Positions 36,175 to 52,421 of a DNA stretch of 64,000 nt are shown here, piece by piece. The notes under the pieces were generated by a model, which worked only from the letters and a program-made list of their open reading frames with translations, was not told the origin of the DNA and did no database searches. The number at the start of each line of letters is the position of its first letter. The stretch's first letter is position 1. The DNA is taken from the NCBI GenBank assembly GCA_002722055.1, contig PBKD01000009.1, positions 1-64,000 on the forward strand, read 5' to 3'. Made by a program: the position numbers and the translations under genes. This stretch comes from Rhodospirillaceae bacterium (GTDB taxonomy: Bacteria; Pseudomonadota; Alphaproteobacteria; SHVP01).

Positions 36175-36546
36175 TTAAGCTTTCTTCTTACCAGCTATAG
36201 GTTTAGCAGGTCCTTTTCTAGTTCTAGCATTGGTATGGGTCCTCTGTCCTCTCACAGGTAATCTTCTTCTATGTCTAAGCCCTCTATAACATCCAAGATC
36301 CATAAGTCTTTTTATGTTTATTGATACCTCTCTTCTAAGATCACCTTCTACAGTATATTCACCGTCAATTAGTTCCCTTATCTTCATTATTTCTGAGTCA
36401 TTTAGATCATTAACTCTTCTCTCAGGTTTTAAACCAGCTTTTTCTCTAATTTGCTTAGCCTTAGTTCGACCAATACCAAATATATATGTTAGCGCGATAT
36501 CTACACGCTTTCCTGTTGGGATATTTACTCCGGCTATACGCGCCAC
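36175..36546 (-). CDS. rpsM: 30S ribosomal protein S13
   Basis: 123 residues, uS13 of the 30S head, contacting the P-site tRNA with its basic tail and bridging to L5. [21 protein letters not shown] is the standard start, [19 protein letters not shown] lies near 86-104, and the tail ends in GKKKA. The start codon is GTG with AGGAG 7 nt upstream. A dedicated promoter lies between adk and this gene, so it heads its own transcription unit as well as being reached from spc. Confidence 0.99.
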
Positions 36547-36621
36547 TATAATTCTCCTAAAACTAATTTATAAAGTAACCCTAAAACTAAAAAATTACCA
36601 AAAAAACCCTTAAGGCGCGAG

Positions 36622-36650
36622 ATTATGTTTATCCTTAGCACTTAAGTCAA
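36622..36650 (-). promoter_or_regulatory. Predicted promoter of the alpha operon (rpsM-rpsK-rpoA-rplQ) with GC-rich discriminator
   Basis: On the minus strand TTGACT (36650-36645), 17 bp and CATAAT (36627-36622) each match consensus at five of six positions. The next bases are CTCGCGCC, a striking GC run in AT-rich DNA. The -35 overlaps the adk stop codon. The start site would be near 36614, giving a leader of about 68 nt. GC-rich discriminators are the mark of promoters inhibited by ppGpp/DksA. The rpsL promoter has the same CGCGCCT heptamer. Confidence 0.7.
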
Positions 36651-37309
36651 CCTTTTGCTGCAATCTTATCATCTAAAATCTCAGAAATTTGATTCTCAAC
36701 CTGATCTGAGCTATCCATTCCGTCTACAGACCTCAAAAGACCTTTATTTTTATAATATTCTAATAAAGGGGCTGTATGTGTATTATATACATCAAGTCTA
36801 TTCTTCATAACCTTTCTTGAGTCATCTGATCTTCGAGAAAAATCAGTATTGCCGCAAAAATCACAAACCCCAGCTTTTTTTGGCGTTACAAAACTATCAT
36901 TATAAACTGCTCCACATTCTGTACATGTAAATCTACCCGTAACCCGTTTTATAAGTAATTCATCATCAACTCTTAACTCAATTACAGCCGAGAGAGAACG
37001 ACCACGTAAATTTAAAAGCTTCTCCAGAGCTATTGCTTGACCCTCTGTTCTTGGAAAACCATCCAAAATAAATTTAGAGTCTCCAATTTTTTCTATTTTT
37101 TCAGATATAATGCCTATCATTACATCGTCTGGTACAAATTCACCTTTATCCATAATCTCTTTCGCTTTTTTTCCTAAATCAGTTCCATCAGAAACAGCAT
37201 TTCTTAACATATCACCTGTTGAAAGTTGAATATAACCTCTCTTTTCAACCAAAAGTTTTGCCTGGGTACCCTTTCCAGCTCCTGGGGGTCCAAGCAAAAT
37301 TATACTCAT
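36647..37309 (-). CDS. adk: Adenylate kinase, zinc-lid type
   Basis: 220 residues; interconverts 2 ADP with ATP and AMP. The P-loop GPPGAGKGT is at 7-15 and the DGFPRT segment at 83-88. The long LID carries Cys129, Cys132, Cys149 and Cys152, arranged CxxC...CxxC, so it should hold a structural zinc as in Gram-positive enzymes. It overlaps secY by 4 bp, the common secY-adk coupling. The alpha-operon promoter overlaps its stop codon. Confidence 0.98.
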   Translation of the reverse strand: MSIILLGPPGAGKGTQAKLLVEKRGYIQLSTGDMLRNAVSDGTDLGKKAKEIMDKGEFVPDDVMIGIISEKIEKIGDSKFILDGFPRTEGQAIALEKLLNLRGRSLSAVIELRVDDELLIKRVTGRFTCTECGAVYNDSFVTPKKAGVCDFCGNTDFSRRSDDSRKVMKNRLDVYNTHTAPLLEYYKNKGLLRSVDGMDSSDQVENQISEILDDKIAAKG

Positions 37310-51855: not shown

Positions 51856-52227
51856 CTATTTTGGCCTTTTAGCGCCATATTTTGATCTCCTTTGACGCCT
51901 ATCACTAACACCTTGAGTATCTAGAACACCTCTAACAATATGGTATCTTACTCCTGGCAAGTCTTTTACTCTTCCACCTCTAATAATTACAACGGAATGT
52001 TCCTGAAGATTATGACCCTCACCAGGAATATAGCTAGTGACTTCGAAATTATTTGTAAGCCTTACTCTAGCAACTTTTCTTAATGCTGAATTAGGTTTCT
52101 TAGGAGTGGTAGTATATACTCGAGTACAAACTCCTCTTTTCTGAGGGCAACCTTCCATAGCTGGAACCTTATTTTTCTTTACAGGAGCAACTCTCGGTTT
52201 TCGCACCAATTGGTTAATTGTTGGCAT
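51856..52227 (-). CDS. rpsL: 30S ribosomal protein S12
   Basis: 123 residues, uS12, at the decoding centre. Lys43 in [11 protein letters not shown] and Lys88 in [13 protein letters not shown] are the wild-type residues at the positions where streptomycin resistance arises, and Asp89 is the methylthiolation site. It heads the str operon behind its own promoter and a leader of about 160 nt. Confidence 0.99.
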
Positions 52228-52314: not shown

Positions 52315-52392
52315 GAGCTTATGTAAACATCATGGCTTCTTTATAAAATGTGTTTAGGTTTTACCCTACGACCAATTCATATAGAGGCGCGC

Positions 52393-52421
52393 ATACTATG
52401 AACGCTTTGATGAATCGTCAA
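52393..52421 (-). promoter_or_regulatory. Predicted promoter of the str operon with GC-rich discriminator
   Basis: TTGACG (52421-52416), exactly 17 bp, then TAGTAT (52398-52393) on the minus strand. GCGCGCCTC follows at once and would lie between the -10 and the start site near 52386. It is the clearest promoter in the window. It stands in the 300-bp gap between rpoC and rpsL, the only large gap of the superoperon besides the L10 leader. The discriminator suggests growth-rate or stringent control. Confidence 0.75.

Follow-up and report, generated by a model that had tools for sequence, protein, structure and literature searches.

A G+C-rich discriminator, probably kept by selection, at the str and alpha operon promoters of an A+T-rich alphaproteobacterium

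The heptamer CGCGCCT, which is shared by the promoters of the str operon and the alpha operon, is probably the G+C-rich discriminator of two ribosomal protein promoters of the sigma-70 type, preserved by selection as the lineage turned A+T-rich. At both operons it is most likely a classic discriminator of the stringent type, from which we infer a response to ppGpp. What is seen directly is the position of the element, its rarity, its conservation, and the presence in the same genome of genes for DksA (TIGR02420, 149 bits, above the cut-off) and for a full-length RelA/SpoT protein, Rsh (TIGR00691, 733 bits). The features concerned all lie on the minus strand of the window, by which we mean the whole 64,000-nucleotide stretch of DNA that was analysed.

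52416-52421, minus strand: -35 element TTGACG of the rpsL (str) promoter, as read in the sequence.
52393-52398, minus strand: -10 element TAGTAT of the rpsL promoter, with a 17-bp spacer to the -35.
52385-52392, minus strand: G+C-rich discriminator GCGCGCCT of the rpsL promoter, made up of G at 52392 and CGCGCCT at 52391-52385.
52337-52387, minus strand: two-helix leader RNA at the start of the predicted rpsL transcript, with its core at about 52380-52343.
51856-52227, minus strand: rpsL, ribosomal protein S12, first gene of the str operon (TIGR00981, 225 bits).
36645-36650, minus strand: -35 element TTGACT of the rpsM (alpha) promoter, overlapping the adk stop codon TGA (36649-36647).
36622-36627, minus strand: -10 element CATAAT of the rpsM promoter, with a 17-bp spacer, as aligned with two congeners.
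36613-36621, minus strand: G+C-rich discriminator CTCGCGCCT of the rpsM promoter, made up of CT and then CGCGCCT at 36619-36613.
36175-36546, minus strand: rpsM, ribosomal protein S13, first gene of the alpha operon (TIGR03631, 178 bits).
36647-37309, minus strand: adk, adenylate kinase, the upstream neighbour of rpsM (NF001380, 265.8 bits).

The initial annotation had described the rpsL promoter as TTGACG-17-TAGTAT, which is how it reads at 52421-52393 of the minus strand, and had placed CGCGCCT at nearly the same point in the rpsL and rpsM promoters; the heptamer is indeed offset from the -10 by 1 nt at rpsL and by 2 nt at rpsM. At both promoters, which appear to be of the sigma-70 type, it would thus lie between the -10 and the start site, the two start sites being predicted from the sequence. 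Along the minus strand the genes of the str region are ordered rpoC, then rpsL, rpsG, fusA, tuf, rpsJ and on, and the closest matches of rpsL with named lineages are alphaproteobacterial. The adk gene is found between secY and rpsM, a gene order known from Alphaproteobacteria. Its stop codon falls inside the rpsM -35 (GGTTGACT), an arrangement that is kept in two congeners.

The discriminator is G+C-rich relative to its surroundings, and it is conserved. Comparison within the genus covers rpsM, the rpsL locus not being recoverable from the congener assemblies. In two same-genus genomes (G001, G002) the rpsM discriminator CTCGCGCCT is identical and the -35 is kept, with substitutions in the spacer and the leader and, in one of the two, a difference at the first base of the -10. 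At rpsL, GCGCGCCT recurs with different spacer sequences in the same-family genomes G006, G008, and G009, the close variant CCGCGCCT is present in G004 and G034, and TTGACG-17-TAGTAT is itself found in the same-family genomes G005, G008, and G009. More widely, TTGAC is kept in 28 of the 30 rpsL upstream regions examined, and rpsL and rpsM are preceded by promoters of the TTGAC type in named genomes and in most of the further genomes searched within the class.

Measured over the six bases after the -10, the GC fraction of the discriminator is 0.84 at rpsL, against 0.53 for the rest of the upstream region (28 promoters; Wilcoxon p 4e-6), and 0.83 at rpsM, against 0.49 (27 promoters; Wilcoxon p 9e-6); these p-values are only indicative because the compared genomes are related, and the choice of promoters by score brings in some selection bias, the discriminator bases themselves being unscored. 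Part of this class-level comparison consists of G+C-rich genomes, in which a G+C-rich discriminator tells less. Within the A+T-rich subset the values are 0.64 versus 0.36 at rpsL (6 genomes) and 0.67 versus 0.32 at rpsM (8 genomes, three of them of the same genus). In the genome under study all six bases of the rpsL discriminator are G or C, and the rest of its upstream region has 29% GC, compared with 53-66% in same-family genomes. A test less dependent on composition compares C with G at the second base beyond the -10. Among the 28 rpsL promoters this base is C in 23 and G in 2 (p 2e-5), and over 77 mostly proteobacterial loci it is C in 60 and G in 6. The two promoters described here have C at rpsL and T at rpsM.

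At the rRNA promoters of E. coli, G+C-rich discriminators contribute to the short life of the open complex. Contact with sigma region 1.2 is reportedly weakened when the second position after the -10 is C (work of Haugen and others, 2006). In the promoters considered here, the stretch of non-template strand that separates the -10 from the start site, being G+C-rich and containing C, would make poor contact with sigma region 1.2; the same strand would resist melting, leaving the open complex short-lived. As growth slows, (p)ppGpp with DksA, a low level of the initiating NTP, or relaxation of the DNA could then shut off both operons. A GC-rich discriminator is typical of promoters that ppGpp/DksA inhibits (PMC9304144; PMC8422995), and the stringent response of the alphaproteobacterium Caulobacter also acts by way of RNA polymerase, DksA, and CdnL (PMC11034885). 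The stringent-type reading of the rpsL and rpsM elements is based on such known ppGpp/DksA promoters, on the likeness to E. coli, and on the presence of DksA and Rsh in the genome. Several points count against it: Alphaproteobacteria also use CdnL/CarD, the second position at rpsM is T and not C, the upstream regions of other ribosomal protein genes and of tRNA genes in this genome are without the element, and a number of other A+T-rich alphaproteobacteria have no G+C-rich discriminator at rpsL.

A G+C-rich discriminator might instead set melting, supercoiling sensitivity, or the choice of start site, and not specifically the response to (p)ppGpp/DksA. The supercoiling-sensitive promoters of enterobacteria do bear the same discriminator signature as the ppGpp-repressed ones (PMC8422995), and the absence of a G+C-rich rpsL discriminator from several other A+T-rich alphaproteobacteria (L102, L103, L112; L069) would also suit such a role. 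We consider it unlikely, however, that this is the whole function of the element: both DksA and a complete Rsh are present, and plain melting energy does not predict the large excess of C over G at the second position of the rpsL discriminator.

GC content in the window is 26-34% over positions 1-36000 and 35-39% over 36000-64000, the part that holds the ribosomal protein and rpoBC genes and in which GC skew is strongly negative. The intergenic DNA of the window (2,957 bp) has 24.5% GC, and the only two runs of at least six G/C bases within it are the rpsL and rpsM elements. CGCGCCT occurs 3 times in the window versus 0.45 expected from shuffles, the third copy lying inside rpoC. In the whole genome (2.16 Mb in 15 contigs, 99% complete) there are 18 copies, versus 7 of the reversed control pattern, and the only two that are intergenic are those of the rpsL and rpsM promoters. 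The other 16 are in open frames, and a genome-wide CGCGCCT regulon was ruled out on that ground. Since a base-composition model predicts about 0.26 intergenic copies, the intergenic count alone is only mildly surprising. The strong part of the observation is that both copies stand directly after the -10 of a ribosomal promoter, a placement that chance does not give.

A strict scan for a promoter followed by a block of G/C bases (TTGAC-N17-19-TANNNT-N0-2-SSSSS) returned 3 distinct sites, namely rpsL, one site in an open frame, and one before a small predicted membrane protein, and gave no enrichment over the reversed control. A promoter-like sequence with a G+C-rich discriminator, TTGACA...TATGAT-TCCGGCAC, is present in intergenic DNA at 1501-1534 of L211, upstream of a small predicted membrane protein (ORF 1602-1871).

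That the same heptamer recurs at two promoters, with no further intergenic copy, is also what might be expected if a dedicated DNA-binding regulator bound there to coordinate the two operons; the initial annotation had named a regulator of ribosome synthesis as one possibility. The comparison with relatives makes such a regulator very unlikely, because the relatives vary the word while keeping its G+C richness. The words CGCGGCTC, CCGGGCCG, GCGCCACT, and CCGCCCAC are all found at the same position, the C at the second position persists, and there are same-family genomes (L090, L123) in which the words at the rpsL and rpsM promoters differ from one another. The feature that is kept is therefore a G+C-rich discriminator and not one operator sequence. 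Drift of the word with retention of G+C would seem to fit contacts with RNA polymerase better than it fits an operator.

In this genome the element is not common to ribosomal promoters, although the initial annotation had suggested that it might be. CGCGCCT is absent upstream of rplK, rplJ, and rpoB and upstream of rpsA, rpsB, rpsF, rplM, rpmI, rplS, rplU, rpsO, rpsP, rpmB, and rpsT (these eleven located with a concatenated E. coli query), and it is also absent upstream of the 33 tRNA genes, out of 34, that were looked at. The proposal of a stringent-control discriminator thus loses its generality; it retains the position of the element, its G+C richness in an A+T-rich background, its conservation, and the company of DksA and Rsh. 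The initial annotation had set two findings against itself in advance, absence from other ribosomal promoters and equal frequency at random intergenic sites. The first proves true of most other ribosomal promoters; the second is not the case.

Among the other ribosomal protein genes examined, only rpmI has a G+C run behind a TAGTAT. The sequence TAGTAT-T-CCGGCGGGGC, in which 10 G+C bases in a row follow the -10-like TAGTAT with no clear -35, lies about 51 nt before the gene (L256); it may represent another discriminator, or else one part of a leader hairpin of rpmI-rplT (CGGC GGGGCAT GCCG). The 99% complete assembly yielded no 16S or 23S rRNA; the first bases of contig C15 seem to be the tail of a 5S gene that lies upstream of a tRNA (L174). 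Promoters guessed upstream of the 16S genes of relatives were too uncertain for use.

It is also quite improbable that the pair of elements arose by coincidence or is a mere remnant of ancestral G+C richness. Same-family genomes have 53-66% GC at the rpsL locus, so a G+C-rich ancestor is probable, and composition by itself would supply the 0.26 intergenic copies given above. However, the neighbours of the elements have drifted to A+T, including leader-stem pairs, A-U in this genome but frequently G-C among relatives; the elements have not, and the rpsM element is unchanged in three congeners.

The start of the predicted rpsL transcript shows a second conserved feature, the two-helix leader RNA. 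Alignment of 19 rpsL leaders gives a fold composed of an outer stem, an internal loop (GGYnG/ARACGC), and an inner stem (UAGn..nCUA). Two-sided changes are seen in 9 of its 12 pairs, and the covariation score, which was reached by none of 500 shuffles, is also above that of every slid version. A covariance model built without this window has its sole match in the 64 kb at 52387-52337 (29.7 bits, E 2.2e-6). The full leader model also finds further rpsL loci outside the seed, and it has no match in 30 rpsM loci or in the other ribosomal protein loci of this genome. The fold is common to many alphaproteobacterial rpsL leaders; in some relatives (L010, L029, L058, L111) long hairpins have been inserted in the inner loop of the leader. 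Searches of Rfam gave no match for the window, the leader, or 11 rpsL loci. The outer-stem pairs in this window are mostly A-U or G-U and those of relatives are often G-C; the structure has therefore been kept while its composition drifted.

Because rpsL leaders carry a conserved fold, and in some relatives (L123, L124) the first part of the rpsM mRNA is able to fold into a G+C-rich hairpin, one might suppose that selection acts on the G+C stretch not as promoter DNA but as the 5′ half of a hairpin in the mRNA. This is highly improbable, for the core of the rpsL fold begins at 52380, downstream of the element at 52392-52385, and the first 34 nt of the genome's own two transcripts fold weakly (z -0.5 and -0.3).

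The promoter assignment gains further support from the leader fold, whose start lies immediately beyond the discriminator. The function of the fold would most likely be feedback by a ribosomal protein of the str operon. This RNA, unlisted in Rfam, may be a more novel part of the locus than the discriminator. It is possible, although we hold the view only tentatively, that the str operon is under two adjacent controls, a G+C-rich discriminator that senses growth rate and a leader RNA that begins with the first bases of the transcript, binds a ribosomal protein, and is more widely distributed than the SAR11 rpsL motif.

The retention of a G+C-rich discriminator by two ribosomal operons in spite of A+T drift would provide evolutionary evidence, from outside the enteric models, for the importance of an element of only a few bases. 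It also suggests a route to stringent-type promoters in A+T-rich genomes, where such an element stands out from the background. If the leader RNA does bind a ribosomal protein, it would supply a missing piece in what is known of how the alphaproteobacterial str operon is regulated by feedback.

The discriminators described here resemble those of well-known E. coli promoters. E. coli rrnB P1 (TATAAT-GCGCCACC) is likewise G+C-rich directly after the -10, to be compared with GCGCGCCT at rpsL; it has C at the second position, as does rpsL, whereas rpsM here has T. A G+C-rich block also follows the -10 of the E. coli S10 promoter (TATAAT-GCGCGGGC). The likeness extends to the same two operons, for the rpsL promoter of E. 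coli (TAAAAT-TCGGCGTCC) is of the same -35/-10 type with a G+C-rich discriminator, and the E. coli alpha (rpsM) promoter, again of the same type, has the G+C-rich discriminator AGCCAGCC. In E. coli, rpmJ precedes rpsM; here adk takes this position, with its stop codon within the rpsM -35. Unlike the stringent promoters of E. coli, the element studied here is set in an intergenic background of 24.5% GC and is found at only two ribosomal operons, and its response is a putative one.

The rpsL leader can be compared with the rpsL motif of Candidatus Pelagibacter ubique, a three-stem junction whose reported occurrence is limited to SAR11 and marine metagenomes (PMC2704228). That motif and other rpsL leaders (PMC2965389) are likewise structured 5′ leaders between rpoC and rpsL, and a conserved bulge in the outer stem is seen both in the Pelagibacter motif and in the fold described here. 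The present fold is built of two helices and an internal loop, whereas the Pelagibacter motif is a three-stem junction, and on this published description the two may differ.
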